From: Pseudomonadota bacterium
Lineage (GTDB): Bacteria; Pseudomonadota; Gammaproteobacteria; Burkholderiales; Casimicrobiaceae
Assembly (NCBI GenBank): GCA_022709775.1
Contig: JAKLIE010000061.1
Coordinates: 1-8,043, forward strand
Direction of reading: 5' to 3'
Length of the DNA stretch: 8,043 bases
The stretch's first letter is position 1. Every line of letters begins with the position of its first letter. Of this stretch, positions 1,031-6,283 are shown one piece after another. The position numbers and the translations under genes were made by a program. The notes under the pieces are model-generated. The model was not told the DNA's origin. It saw nothing but the letters and a program-made list of their open reading frames with translations, and did not search any database.

Positions 1031-1036
1031 ATTATG
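1031..1036 (-). promoter_or_regulatory. Candidate -10 box for the substrate-binding protein gene
   Basis: The minus strand reads CATAAT, five of six matches to the sigma70 -10 consensus, in otherwise GC-rich DNA. Transcription would begin near 1024 and give a leader of about 22 bases that contains the GGAGG site. I could not find a convincing -35 box at 16-18 bases spacing, so this rests on the -10 box alone. Confidence 0.35.
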
Positions 1037-1155
1037 CGCGAAGCCGGAGCCGCGCGGCATCCCTCGCCGGACGGGCGGCCCGCCCCCACGCGCAGCAGGG
1101 GAAACCGGACGAACACGACGTCCGAAAACGGCGAGTCGGGCCCGGACCGCCCGGC

Positions 1156-1161
1156 TATGAT
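1156..1161 (+). promoter_or_regulatory. Candidate -10 box TATGAT, possibly giving a leaderless ada-alkA mRNA
   Basis: TATGAT matches the -10 consensus at five of six bases. A start site about seven bases downstream would fall at 1168-1169, on the preferred ATG of the Ada-AlkA gene. No good -35 box is seen near 1132-1139, which would fit a promoter needing an activator such as the methylated Ada domain. That last point is inference. No clear Shine-Dalgarno sequence lies before the ATG. Confidence 0.4.
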
Positions 1162-1168
1162 CCGTCCC

Positions 1169-2602
1169 ATGACCCTCGATACCGACGCCTGCTGGCGGGC
1201 GCTCTCCGCCCACGATGCGCGTTTCGACGGCCGGTTCTTCGTCGGCGTCGCGACGACCGGTATCTACTGCCGGCCGGTCTGCAACGTCCGCACGCCGCGT
1301 CGCGAGAACTGCCGGTATTTCGCCAGCGCCGCGGCCGCCGAGGCCAGCGGATTCCGTCCGTGCCTCCGGTGCCGTCCCGAGCTCGCGCCCGGTCACGCGG
1401 CGATCGACGCGTCGTCGCGGCTCGCGCAGGGCGCGGTCGACCTGATCGAGTCCGGGGCGATGGACGAGGGCGGCCTCGCGCGCCTCGCCGAGCGCGTCGG
1501 CGTGTCGGACCGGCACCTGCGCCGCGTGTTCGACGCCGAGTTCGGCGTCTCGCCGGTCGAGTACGCGCAGACGCACCGGCTGCTGCTCGCCAAGCGCCTC
1601 TTGACCGACACGCGGCTCCCGGTCACCGACGTCGCGCTCGCGAGCGGCTTCTCGAGCGTGCGCCGGTTCAACGCGCTGTTTCGCGAACGCTACCGGATGG
1701 CGCCGTCGAGGCTGCGCGGCGAGGCGGCGGCCGACAATGCGTCCGACTGGCTCGTGTTCGAGCTGGCCTATCGCCCGCCCTACGATTTCGACGCGATCCT
1801 CGGATTCCTGCGTGACCGCGCGATCGACGGCATCGAGTCGGCCGGCGACGCCGCGTACCTTCGCACCGTGGCGGTGACGCGCGGCGGCACGACGCACGCG
1901 GGCCGCGTCGACGTCCGCCATCATCCGCGGCGCCACGCGCTGCGCGTGTCGCTGTCGGCGTCGCTCGCGCGCGTCGTGCCCGCGGTCCTCGGCCGCGCGC
2001 GGCACGCGTTCGACCTCGCCGCGGATCCGCGCGAGATCGGGGCGACGCTCGGCGACCTCGCGCGCGGGCATCCCGGCCTGCGCGTGCCGGGCACGTTCGA
2101 CGGCTTCGAGCTGGCGGTGCGAGCGATCGTCGGGCAGCAGGTGTCGGTGAAGGCGGCGCGTACATTGCTCGGGCGTCTCGTCGCCGCGCACGGCGAAACG
2201 GCCGAGCTGCCGGGGACCGGTCCGACGAGGCTCTTCCCGAGCGCACGCGCGATCGCGGCGTTGCCGCCCGCCGATCTCGCGCGCATCGGCCTGGTCGCTG
2301 CGCGAGCGCGAGCCGTGCATGCGCTGGCATCGGCAGTCGATGCGGGCACGGTGAGCCTCGAGCCGGGCGCCGACGTGGACGCATCGATGCGGTCGCTCGT
2401 CGAGCTGCCGGGCATCGGCGACTGGACGGCGAGCTACATCGCGATGCGCGCGCTGCGCTGGCCCGACGCGTTTCCGGCCGGCGACCTCGTCGTCAAGCGC
2501 GCGCTGGGCGTCACGACCGCCGCCCGCGCGGAGATCGCCAGCGCGGCGTGGCGTCCGTGGCGCGCGTACGCGGTCATGCATCTGTGGAAGGGATCGTCAT
2601 GA
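1169..2602 (+). CDS. alkA: Ada metal-binding / AraC HTH / AlkA 3-methyladenine DNA glycosylase fusion
   Basis: This is a 477 aa cytoplasmic DNA-repair and regulatory fusion. Residues 8-75 form the Ada N-terminal zinc domain, with Cys34, Cys38, Cys65 and Cys68 in the same spacing as the four zinc Cys of E. coli Ada. The first would accept methyl from phosphotriesters and switch on DNA binding. Residues about 85-183 are an AraC-type double helix-turn-helix (ARLAERVGVSDRHLRRVF; DVALASGFSSVRRFNALFR). From about 190 to 285 lies the AlkA N-terminal domain, and from about 300 the HhH-GPD glycosylase fold, with the hairpin LPGIGDWTASY at 413-423 and catalytic Asp439 in FPAGDLVVKR. It should excise 3-methyladenine and related alkylated bases and probably autoregulates the operon. 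The Ada methyltransferase half is absent and is supplied by the next gene, which overlaps by ATGA. An ATG at 1157 would add four residues, but it lies inside the TATGAT box; starts upstream of that add non-conserved sequence. Confidence 0.93.
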   Translation: MTLDTDACWRALSAHDARFDGRFFVGVATTGIYCRPVCNVRTPRRENCRYFASAAAAEASGFRPCLRCRPELAPGHAAIDASSRLAQGAVDLIESGAMDEGGLARLAERVGVSDRHLRRVFDAEFGVSPVEYAQTHRLLLAKRLLTDTRLPVTDVALASGFSSVRRFNALFRERYRMAPSRLRGEAAADNASDWLVFELAYRPPYDFDAILGFLRDRAIDGIESAGDAAYLRTVAVTRGGTTHAGRVDVRHHPRRHALRVSLSASLARVVPAVLGRARHAFDLAADPREIGATLGDLARGHPGLRVPGTFDGFELAVRAIVGQQVSVKAARTLLGRLVAAHGETAELPGTGPTRLFPSARAIAALPPADLARIGLVAARARAVHALASAVDAGTVSLEPGADVDASMRSLVELPGIGDWTASYIAMRALRWPDAFPAGDLVVKRALGVTTAARAEIASAAWRPWRAYAVMHLWKGSS

Positions 2603-3135
2603 ACGAAATCGTCAGGTGGTGCCGCATCGAGACTCCGCTCGGGACCGTTCGCATCGCCGCGCGCGGCGATGCGATAGCGGGGCTCTGGTTCGATGGACAG
2701 AAGTACGACGCGGTGGCCGACGACGCATGGCGCGAGTCGCCGGGCGATCCGATGCTGCGCGATGCCGTGCGCCAGCTCCGCGAGTACTTCAAGGGACGGC
2801 GCGAGCGCTTCGACCTCCCGCTCGCGCCGGAGGGCACGACCTTTCAGAGGGGCGTGTGGCGCGCGATCGCGAAAGTGCCCGCGGGCAGGACCGCGTCGTA
2901 CGGCGACCTCGCTCGGCGGATCGGGCGGCCGTCGTCGGTGCGCGCCGTCGGCGCGGCGGTGGGGCGCAACCCGCTGTCGGTCGTCGTGCCTTGCCACCGG
3001 ATCGTCGGGTCCGACGGCTCGCTCACCGGCTACGCGGGCGGGCTCGCGCGCAAGCGTGCGCTGCTCGCGCTCGAGCGCGTGGAGATCGACCCGGCGCGCG
3101 ATGCGATCGCCGCGAGGCGTGCGGGCGCCCCGTGA
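2599..3135 (+). CDS. ogt: Methylated-DNA--[protein]-cysteine S-methyltransferase (Ogt/MGMT family)
   Basis: This is a 178 aa suicide repair protein that transfers alkyl groups from O6-alkylguanine (and O4-alkylthymine) in DNA to its own cysteine. The active-site motif PCHRIV is present, with acceptor Cys132. Also visible are the DNA-binding helix around RAVGAAVGRNPL (Arg115, the likely base-flipping 'finger'; Asn124, hinge), Tyr101 in ASYGDLA, and the C-terminal GYAGGLARKRALLALE. The N-terminal ribonuclease-like domain is short, which fits the usual Ogt length of about 160-180 aa. The start is ATG at 2599, which overlaps the TGA of the preceding Ada-AlkA gene and has GGAAGGGA at 2586-2593 as ribosome binding site, so translation is probably coupled. 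An in-frame ATG 51 bases upstream lies within the preceding gene and is not needed. Function is firm from the motif. Confidence 0.95.
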   Translation: MNEIVRWCRIETPLGTVRIAARGDAIAGLWFDGQKYDAVADDAWRESPGDPMLRDAVRQLREYFKGRRERFDLPLAPEGTTFQRGVWRAIAKVPAGRTASYGDLARRIGRPSSVRAVGAAVGRNPLSVVVPCHRIVGSDGSLTGYAGGLARKRALLALERVEIDPARDAIAARRAGAP

Positions 3136-4163: not shown

Positions 4164-5087
4164 ATGCTCCTCGATCCTGGCGTTGCCGACTACCTCGCGC
4201 GCGTCGCGGCCGCGGTACCGCCGCTCGCCGAGCCGACGCCCGCCGCACGCCGCAATCGGATGGAGCTGATCGCGCGACGCTTCCCCGCGCCGGAAGACAC
4301 GGTTGCGCGCGGCGACGCGTGGATCGCGCTGCATGGCCGGGAACTGGCTGTTCGGATCTACCGGCCGCGCGAAGGCGTCCTGCCGGCAATCGTCTATCTG
4401 CACGGCGGCGGCTGGGTCGCGGGCAGTCTCGCGACTCACGACGGCGCGTGCGCCGCGCTCGCACAGGACGCCGACGCGGTGGTGGCGAGCGTCCACTACC
4501 GCCGCGCGCCCGAAAGCCCGTTCCCCGCGCCGAACGACGACGCGTACGCGGCGCTCGCATGGGTCGCGGAGCACGCCGACGCGCTGGCGGTCGACCGCAC
4601 GCGCATTGCCGTCGCCGGCGACAGCGCGGGAGCGCACCTCGCGGTCGGCTGCGCGATCGAGGCGCGCGATCGCGGCGGACCCGCGATCGCGCTTCAGCTC
4701 CTGATCTATCCGGTCGTCGAGCCGGCGTTCGACACGCCGAGCTATCTCGCCCACGCGTCGTCGCCGACGCTGACGCGCGACGACATGATCTGGTACTGGC
4801 GCCAGTACTTGCCGGAAGGTGCGGACGACGGGAGCGCGCGCGCGGTGCCGACCCGCGATTCGCTGGCGGGCCTGCCCCGCGCGCACGTCGTCGTCGCAGG
4901 GCTCGACCCGCTGCGCGACGAGGGCGTGGCGCTCGCATCCCGATTCGCGAAGGCGGGCGTCGCTTCGACCCTTGCCGAGGCGCCGTCGCTGCCGCACGGC
5001 TTCCTTCGCGCCGGGCCGTACGCGGCGGCCGCACGTTCCGCTCAGGCCGCGCTGGGCGCTGCGGCACGCGCCGCACTGCACGGGTGA
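4164..5087 (+). CDS. Alpha/beta hydrolase, HSL family (family IV carboxylesterase/lipase)
   Basis: This is a 307 aa soluble esterase-like protein without a signal peptide. The hormone-sensitive-lipase hallmarks are all present. The oxyanion-hole motif HGGGW lies at 80-84, and HYRRAPE at 111-117 follows the next strand. The nucleophile elbow GDSAGAHL has Ser154. Asp248 in GLDPLRDEG and His278 in LPHGF complete the triad. The N-terminal 40 residues or so form the cap region usual in this family. Members hydrolyse short- to medium-chain acyl esters; the natural substrate cannot be read from sequence. The start ATG at 4164 has no clear ribosome binding site, but no better start lies between the previous stop and the conserved domain, and the length fits the family (about 300-320 aa). 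The next gene starts four bases after the stop, so the two are probably co-transcribed. Confidence 0.93.
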   Translation: MLLDPGVADYLARVAAAVPPLAEPTPAARRNRMELIARRFPAPEDTVARGDAWIALHGRELAVRIYRPREGVLPAIVYLHGGGWVAGSLATHDGACAALAQDADAVVASVHYRRAPESPFPAPNDDAYAALAWVAEHADALAVDRTRIAVAGDSAGAHLAVGCAIEARDRGGPAIALQLLIYPVVEPAFDTPSYLAHASSPTLTRDDMIWYWRQYLPEGADDGSARAVPTRDSLAGLPRAHVVVAGLDPLRDEGVALASRFAKAGVASTLAEAPSLPHGFLRAGPYAAAARSAQAALGAAARAALHG

Positions 5088-5091
5088 CCCG

Positions 5092-5994
5092 ATGGCCGAT
5101 CCCGACCGCCCCCCGCCGAAGCTCTCGTCGCCGCCGCGCGAGCCGACGTCGCCCTCCGATCCGACCGGCATCGACGACGGCAAGGGCGGCATCGCGCTCG
5201 GCACGCGGCGCCCGGCGCTGCGCGCGACCGCGTGGCTCGCCCTCTTCGTCGTGCTGGTCGCGATCGCGGCGCTCGCCTGGCGGACGATGGAGCGCAAGGC
5301 GGTCGAGCGGACCTACGCCGAGGGCGTGCGGGCGCTCGCGGAGGGCCGCCCCGGGGACGCACGGGCCGCGTTCGACCGCGCGATCGCGAAGCGGCCCGAG
5401 TGGGGTGCGGCGTGGAGGCAGCGCGGCTTCGCGGCGGGCAAGCCCGCCGACGCCATCGCCGACTTCGGCCGGGCGATCGCGCTCGACGGCAGCGATGCCG
5501 ACGCGTACGCGGCGCGCGGCCGCGCGTGGATGCAGGCGCAGGAGCCGGCAAGGGCGATCGGTGATTTCGACCGGGCGCTTTCGATCGCGGTGTCCAGCGG
5601 CACCGACCCGGCGACCGTCGCGTCCTGGCGCGCGGAGCGGGCCGCGGCCCGAGTCGCGGCGGGGGACTTCGCGGCCGCGCTGGACGACTGGAGGAAGGTG
5701 GTCGCGGCGCGCGGCGCACCGGAGGATCACCGCAACCTCGCGGCGGCGCTGGCGGCGGGCGGCGACTGGCATGCCGCGCACGATGCCTACGATCGCGCCA
5801 TCGCTGCCTCACCCCAGCCGGAGTGGCTCGGCGAGCGCGCGCTTGTGCTGATCGAGCTCGGCGACGACGAGGCGGCAGGCGCCGACCTCGAGCGCTGCGC
5901 GCGAGCCGATCCTTCGTGCACCCAGCGTTTCGGCGCGCTCGCCGGACAGCGCGCGCGGGACCTCGGGCGTGTGCCCCCTGCGGGAGCGCTCTAG
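5092..5994 (+). CDS. Membrane-anchored tetratricopeptide-repeat protein
   Basis: This is a 300 aa protein of unknown specific role. Residues 1-42 are polar and proline-rich (probably disordered). Residues about 43-63 form one transmembrane helix (WLALFVVLVAIAALAW). From about 71 to 275 there are six TPR-like units with the pattern of small residues and a final AxxxFxxAI/L: GDARAAFDRAIA, ADAIADFGRAIAL, ARAIGDFDRALSI, AAALDDWRKVV, HAAHDAYDRAIA and EAAGADLERCARADP. Basic residues lie on both sides of the helix, so the side on which the TPR part sits is uncertain; periplasmic is a guess. TPR arrays bind protein partners and no enzyme motif is visible. The ATG follows the hydrolase stop by four bases, with GGGTGA just before, suggesting coupling. 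Its TAG stop shares two bases with the terminal repeat of the following structured element, so the present C-terminus may have been set by that element. Confidence 0.82.
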   Translation: MADPDRPPPKLSSPPREPTSPSDPTGIDDGKGGIALGTRRPALRATAWLALFVVLVAIAALAWRTMERKAVERTYAEGVRALAEGRPGDARAAFDRAIAKRPEWGAAWRQRGFAAGKPADAIADFGRAIALDGSDADAYAARGRAWMQAQEPARAIGDFDRALSIAVSSGTDPATVASWRAERAAARVAAGDFAAALDDWRKVVAARGAPEDHRNLAAALAAGGDWHAAHDAYDRAIAASPQPEWLGERALVLIELGDDEAAGADLERCARADPSCTQRFGALAGQRARDLGRVPPAGAL

Positions 5995-6016
5995 GGCCTG
6001 TTAGCGCCATCGGGGC
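5993..6016 (+). repeat. Left terminal inverted repeat of the structured element
   Basis: The 24 bases beginning AGGGCCTGTTAGCGC are the reverse complement of 6236-6259 with only two non-Watson-Crick positions (6008 and 6015). The first two bases also form the end of the TAG stop of the TPR gene. I see no clear direct duplication flanking the two ends. Confidence 0.85.
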
Positions 6017-6235
6017 ACTCGCGCCGGTGCCGCGCCGGCCGCAGGGCCAGGCGCGAGTCGGCCGTGTGCTTCCAGCACACCACAAGCGAGCGACAACGCC
6101 ATGCGGCCAGCGCGGCACCGGCCCTCCGGGTGATCTCGGGAAACGGCCGCCCTCGGCGTTGCACGTCCTCGCAGTAGGCCGGCTACTGCTTGCGGAGTGC
6201 GCCTTGATGGCGGCCGTTTCCCGAGTCACGCGATC

Positions 6236-6259
6236 GTCCCGATAGCGCTAACAGGCCCT
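6236..6259 (-). repeat. Right terminal inverted repeat of the structured element
   Basis: This is the mate of the left terminal repeat, ending GCGCTAACAGGCCCT. Read on the minus strand it starts AGGGCCTGTTAGCGCTATCGG against AGGGCCTGTTAGCGCCATCGG on the left, a single difference in the first 21 bases. Confidence 0.85.
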
Positions 6260-6283
6260 GGCCTCGTCGGAGCGCGCGAGACC

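Follow-up and report, generated by a model that had tools for sequence, protein, structure and literature searches.

In this study, we asked what an almost completely self-complementary stretch of DNA at the end of a TPR-repeat gene is, and, if it is a mobile repeat, what moves it. The original prediction had placed three long helices in a 267-base unit (5993 to 6259) of the window, i.e., of the whole 8,043-nucleotide stretch analyzed, with linkers of 12 and 4 bases at their junction and no reading frame to account for them. The three helices lie where they had been placed, and the element folds on both strands into a Y made of an outer stem, two long arms and a 7-nt mini-hairpin (Table 1), with RNA folding energies of -192.3 kcal/mol on the plus strand and -198.9 kcal/mol on the minus strand. 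None of 200 dinucleotide shuffles folded as well (z = -13.4 and -12.9), and with DNA parameters the fold still reached a z score of -11.5. The nested helices stand, but comparison with relatives moves the boundary of the element proper to 5994-6258, where its terminal bases read GGGCC...GGCCC, and assigns the outermost A-T pair (5993/6259) to the flanking TA; likewise, the 12-base linker starts with the mini-hairpin, and the 4-base one is paired in the minimum-energy fold. The absence of a reading frame holds for the element—which has no coding capacity and, at 265 bp, falls under the 500-bp MITE limit—but not for its edge, since the stop codon of the upstream gene spans the left boundary. The patatin-like protein encoded next to the element is 85% identical to a Burkholderiales MAG protein and 70% and 65% identical to two Casimicrobiaceae MAG proteins, which makes a betaproteobacterial origin of the window probable. 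Elsewhere in the window (1034-3135), a gene for an Ada-AlkA fusion protein adjoins an O6-methylguanine methyltransferase gene.

Table 1. Parts of the Y element and of its flanks, in window coordinates
Feature	Position	Strand	Basis or remark
Complete Y element, 265 bp	5994..6258	.	Ends GGGCCTGTTAGCGC ... GCGCTAACAGGCCC; length and ends match 123 copies
Left flanking TA, target site	5992..5993	.	Preceding C and the element's first G give CTAG; left TA in 99/121 copies with readable flanks
Right flank TG	6259..6260	.	Presumed second TA, decayed; right TA in 101/121 copies
Outer stem, left strand (terminal inverted repeat)	5994..6022	+	Minimum-energy fold, 29 pairs, three in flank
Outer stem, right strand	6230..6258	+	Minimum-energy fold
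Arm 1, long stem with imperfect conserved tip	6023..6122	+	Model R2: 30.9 bits, E 2.2e-6, 6023-6121
Mini-hairpin CCTCCGG between the arms	6123..6129	+	Fold; 7 nt in 88/110 relatives folding with two long arms
Arm 2, same kind of arm, inverted	6130..6229	-	Minus-strand reading CAAGGCGC ... GCAACGCCG; model R2: 68.8 bits, E 5e-16, 6130-6231
TAG stop of the upstream TPR-repeat gene	5992..5994	+	ORF 4819-5994, TPR domains; at the left boundary of the element

The window element is a member of an extensive family of mobile elements that carry no genes. A two-end pattern run against 84,980 species genomes returned at least 120 stretches, and a distant nucleotide search of plasmids returned one Variovorax paradoxus record (92% of the query at 69.5% identity), whose copy folds as in the window with different arm sequences. 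The resulting set of 123 copies comprises the listed pattern matches, the window and the plasmid copy, and its hosts are a sample: among the matches listed, the records are titled as alpha-, beta-, gamma- and zetaproteobacteria, with a small number of MAGs from other phyla, whose labels, such as Bacteroidetes or Acidobacteria, may reflect binning errors. Although the pattern permitted 247 to 277 bp, 115 of the 123 copies (among the matches listed) measure 263 to 268 bp. The fold with two long arms is found in 110 copies, the other 13 lacking it as minimum-energy structure; within these 110, 92 have an outer stem reaching position 32-33, and arm 1 and arm 2 are 98 to 101 nt long in 91 and 88 copies, respectively. 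Each arm consists of a conserved imperfect tip flanked by a variable stem. Of 178 arms, 127 carry the tip motif, CAAGGCG...GCAACGCCG, reading inward and none carries it reading outward, the other 51 lacking it as defined; the element is thus a pair of similar ends in inverted orientation.

A model built from 40 arms with the window left out (R2) recovered both window arms (Table 1), its next match there (E 0.0066) being arm 2 on the opposite strand; in 100 kb of a high-GC Streptomyces plasmid, R2 gave one match at E 0.96 and R1 none, these RNA models being only roughly calibrated. Through the arm model we reached outer stems other than GGGCCTGTTA, for instance CTAAGACAAACG, TTAACCCGGCAA, GTGGTCCATGCG, GTAGTCCTTCAA, GTGTCCTGTCAC, GAGCCTGTCTAT and GAACCTATCTCA; several end types co-occur in one genome, and some are distantly alike. 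In a refolding of 24 elements, which between them had about ten distinct end types, all had a length of 261 to 287 bp and an outer stem of 23 to 32 bp, 22 had both arms at 93 to 101 nt, 19 had the 7-nt mini-hairpin, and 13 had TA on both sides. This shows that the layout—outer stem, two inward arms of ∼99 nt and mini-hairpin—is kept while stems and ends vary widely.

The exact type-1 pattern occurs in 10 of 274 genomes of Variovorax's class, and the arm was found in 36 of 114 genomes of that class and in 63 of 200 genomes of the phylum; hence, these elements could be among the most widespread non-coding mobile elements of Proteobacteria. Because at most 35 (class) and 20 (phylum) candidates per genome were scored with the arm model, the copy numbers from these two scans are lower bounds. 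One 2.6-Mb genome holds 45 forward and 46 reverse ends, and Variovorax sp. MHTC-1 holds 22 exact copies, of which 18 were compared: 17 share a mean pairwise identity of 98.4% (minimum, 96.2%), and the remaining one, of equal length, is 49% identical to them. These near-identical dispersed copies and the 123 members of the family bear out the suggestion that the element is a copied repeat. Among the 17 similar MHTC-1 copies (L177-L194 except L186), the central loop CCG[A/G/C]AGG occurs in three forms, as if one base of the mini-hairpin loop were a mutation hotspot. A second small palindrome, ∼CGCCCCGAAGGAAGTGCCCTTGGGG, is nested within Y elements of Thiodiazotropha and of a Burkholderiales MAG (L122, L128-L132, and L054 at ∼2985-3010). 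A search of the open-access literature by sequence strings and concepts returned no description of the Y element.

Our data show TA to be the insertion target, with a preference for YTAR, and a TA to lie on either side of the inserted element. Among the matches listed, 86 of 121 type-1 copies have TA on both sides, 28 on one side and 7 on neither; a pyrimidine (C or T) precedes the left TA in 97 of 99 cases, and a purine (G or A) follows the right TA in 95 of 102. A nested insertion, in which a type-2 element sits within a type-1 end, reads GGGCCTGT-TA-[element]-TA-ACAC (L197), and an empty site in a relative (L292) reads AATGGCTTAGACGAG where MHTC-1 (L193) has GATGGCCTA-[element]-TAGACGAG in a gapless alignment, although an element-borne TA would look identical to a target duplication in both cases. 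At this MHTC-1 locus, relatives have CTAG or TTAG where MHTC-1 has CTA-element-TAG. It is the only one of six Variovorax loci compared with a gapless empty site carrying TA; at L194 the gapless relative has CTGG, an end-to-end remnant of 18 bp is present in one relative at L188, and the three remaining loci aligned poorly or on one side only, with no clean junction. The insertions are thus shown to be dispersed, recent and targeted to TA, and "MITE-like," as the original prediction had it, is an apt description of a short, gene-less element with terminal inverted repeats and TA on both sides.

Several observations concern what is left behind or placed inside. Other Variovorax genomes carry CTAGGNCCTAG sequences at a stop codon at the site orthologous to L193 (L271, L273 and L283), which are possibly minimal remnants. 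Solo 14-bp ends (L169, L172-L174, two in L175, and L122 at 912), mostly TA-flanked as CTA-GGGCCTGTTAGCRC-TAG and six of them in Dyella mobilis, are either slippage products or excision footprints; for these and for the end-to-end fusions an excision footprint need not be invoked, since short direct repeats (CTA, GTTAAC) at the junctions make replication slippage across the palindrome sufficient. One Y element of Variovorax sp. MHTC-1 has an IS630-family copy inserted at a TA within its right end (L139, 1111-2490). Two arms lying 5 kb apart in one genome (L245) belong to a mirror-image contig, an apparent assembly artifact around a long palindromic element. A phage or plasmid origin was set aside as well: places covering at least 80% of the query occur in 1 of 72,556 plasmid records and in 0 of 50,697 phage records, and IMG/VR gave three stretches.

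The position of the window copy at a stop codon is repeated in the family. The junction TAG ends an open frame of at least 100 codons in 40 of 105 copies (600-nt flank), compared to 78 of 403 CTAG sites taken as control from other places in these loci (p = 1.4e-4); an open frame was taken to run between two stops, with no start codon required, and in GC-rich DNA some are spurious, in the control alike. In MHTC-1, 16 of the 18 copies have such a frame. A type-1 element has G as its first base and C as its last; inserted into CTAG, it re-creates TAG on either side, and therefore a type-1 insertion at a TAG stop should be nearly harmless. IS870 of Agrobacterium likewise inserts at CTAG with a stop codon formed at the junction; it encodes a transposase, whereas the Y element carries none.

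Which molecule is under constraint bears directly on the first of the alternatives. Structural constraint had been predicted, with RNA and cruciform DNA as the candidates, and the alignment of 92 arms agrees: all 28 pairs covary, with changes on both sides, pairing cells amount to 86.6% compared to 52.5% in shuffles, and the covariation score is 0.808 compared to 0.216 (standard deviation, 0.009), with 0 of 500 shuffles as high. Homologues thus exist, and pairing is preserved in them, although template-directed correction, rather than selection, can also keep palindromes near-perfect. Within the variable stems, all four Watson-Crick pairs substitute for one another and G-T is seldom seen, making up 8 of the 707 standard pairs at positions 15 to 20 of the outer stem, where independent columns would give 16%, and 5 of 496 at arm columns 12 to 18; these columns were picked post hoc, and the wider shares are 4.0% in distal columns 9 to 19, 10.4% near the tip, and 5.1% in tip and hairpin. 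RNA helices generally tolerate about a tenth G-U pairs, and we therefore read the constraint as probably acting on DNA. The rarity of G-T in variable stems and the arrangement of the arms as inverted copies favor the DNA side of the predicted pair, i.e., folded DNA over RNA. A structured RNA, or a bidirectional terminator or mRNA-stability element spread by selection at gene ends, would accord with the extreme stability as RNA and with the excess of stop codons at the junction, yet such an excess is also expected if insertions inside genes are lost, and the scarcity of G-U, the inverted symmetry of the tip motif, the clean insertion at TA and the near-identical dispersed copies argue against it, as does the lack of an evident orientation preference in one genome, MHTC-1, where copies lie in both orientations relative to the adjacent gene. 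We regard this explanation as very improbable. One RNA family had been named specifically, the Betaproteobacteria toxic small RNA (RF02278), and here the prediction found no support: the window has no match to it or to any other Rfam family at E ≤ 1, and seven related loci have none at the gathering threshold, so that the copies tested match no Rfam family.

Two further explanations accept mobile DNA and differ in the enzyme. The elements could be MITEs of the ordinary sort, which arose by internal deletion from several DDE insertion sequences (IS5- or IS630-like) and are moved by transposases that bind the ends, with the Y fold an incidental by-product or an aid to synapsis. Ends such as GAGCCTGTC, GAACCTATCT and GGGCCTGTT, together with the CTAG target and the flanking TA, presumably resemble IS5-family ends, and small size and a multicopy state are typical of MITEs (PMC10969869). 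Derivatives of different insertion sequences are, however, unlikely to have arms, tips, mini-hairpin and length in common, and the enzyme did not turn up where this explanation would place it. In 20 regions (±5 kb) around apparently single ends in two genomes, we recognized no autonomous version and no second end enclosing a transposase gene; these regions held truncated copies, short solo ends, strings matching by chance, partners that were degenerate or shortened and, in one case, a gap in the assembly. Of their 131 ORFs of at least 150 codons, 9 were annotated, with no transposases, and the genes lying between weak end-like strings had housekeeping functions. PF13340 was absent above the cutoff from all four genomes tested and PF13358 from three of them, and of the three PF13358 matches in the fourth, one is the IS630 copy within a Y element and the other two lie away from any end, so an IS427-like (PF13340) or IS630-like (PF13358) partner is absent or unrelated there. 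PF01609 (DDE_Tnp_1) occurs in 22 of 36 arm-bearing and 36 of 78 other genomes, a difference that is not significant (p = 0.16). On balance, we consider this explanation unlikely. The alternative of a RAYT-type Y1 (HUH) transposase that works on a folded single strand, as proposed for REPINs, with the right TA borne by the element and no duplication, we think somewhat less likely again. The layout of imperfect hairpins in inverted pairs is REPIN-like, such an enzyme, inserting 3′ of TA, would produce an identical sequence, and PF01797 (Y1), present in all of the first eight genomes, occurs in 30 of 36 arm-bearing compared to 42 of 78 other genomes (p = 0.003); but this link is not significant when genomes of similar size are compared (p = 0.16 and 0.69 for the two size classes), PF01797 is missing from six arm-bearing genomes, including one that has 25 arm matches, and none of 15 RAYT loci (±1.5 kb) contains an arm or an exact end, four of them having end-like strings that are single or unpaired and carry at most two mismatches. 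A candidate RAYT partner is thus present but not adjacent. No gene family of another kind emerged beside the copies, where annotated ORFs are housekeeping genes; the largest similarity clusters (18, 13, 5 and 4 loci) among 2,500 open frames from 121 sources, each judged from a single representative, are histidine kinases, ABC ATPases, zinc dehydrogenases and chemotaxis receptors. Ends common to the elements and an autonomous mover were not seen in the genomes examined.

Given these data, the window element is probably non-autonomous, MITE-like mobile DNA whose folded form, more than its end sequence, would be recognized by an enzyme acting in trans. In this mechanism, the DNA would fold into the Y, as a single strand or a cruciform, and the folded DNA would be under selection; an enzyme encoded elsewhere would recognize the shape and the arm tips more than any fixed end sequence and would then cut and join at the TA where the outer stem of the Y ends. 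Against this folded-DNA reading stand the 13 of 123 copies without two long arms, the 51 of 178 arms without the tip motif, and the 35 of 121 type-1 copies without TA on one or both sides. More tentatively, and with more doubt than belief, we speculate that there may be a phylum-wide class of transposition in which one chromosomal enzyme acting in trans reads the Y shape and arm tips, so that the ends, of which about ten types were seen with several in one genome, drift while the three-dimensional substrate stays fixed.

The Y element shares features with several known systems. Integron attC sites and IS200/IS605 ends are recognized by structure rather than sequence and contain imperfect hairpins; they offer a working resemblance only, as Y copies are dispersed singly with TA on both sides and no adjacent recombinase gene was recognized. 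With REP sequences and REPINs, in which imperfect hairpins form inverted pairs, the Y element shares this layout, high copy number and lack of genes. By the definition in PMC3733652, the REPIN/RAYT system has a GTAG-type tag beside a 20- to 40-bp palindrome, whereas Y arms are ∼99 nt long, the flank is YTAR, the ends carry no GTAG tag, and the element flanks a RAYT gene in none of the 15 loci. The RF02278 RNAs are also multicopy and non-coding, but much shorter than the Y element, those listed being 57 to 92 nt in B. cenocepacia (PMC4603805) and 93 to 115 nt in Herbaspirillum (PMC7011215), and their covariance model gave no match at E ≤ 1. Similar in kind are the bacterial MITEs RUP, Correia/NEMIS and ERIC/IRU/RU-1, which, according to PMC2229807 and PMC10969869, are likewise short, non-coding and multicopy, with terminal TA and inverted repeats, stable folds and a mover mostly unidentified. 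Each of these is described in PMC2229807 as restricted to one host group and ∼100 to 200 bp in size, whereas the Y family keeps ∼265 bp and its fold across records named as alpha-, beta-, gamma- and zetaproteobacteria, with varying ends and stems and two inverted arms with conserved tips. ERIC/RU-1, described there as a 127-bp enterobacterial element, is set apart by that description from a 265-bp element with three helices.

Taken together, these elements offer an example in which DNA secondary structure seems to be better conserved than sequence. Landing on TAG stop codons and restoring them suggests a route by which an element could reach tens of copies in a genome without harm. With its fold, its TA-flanked insertions and its dispersed copies, the Y element is a clear test case for what moves the TA-flanked MITEs of bacteria.
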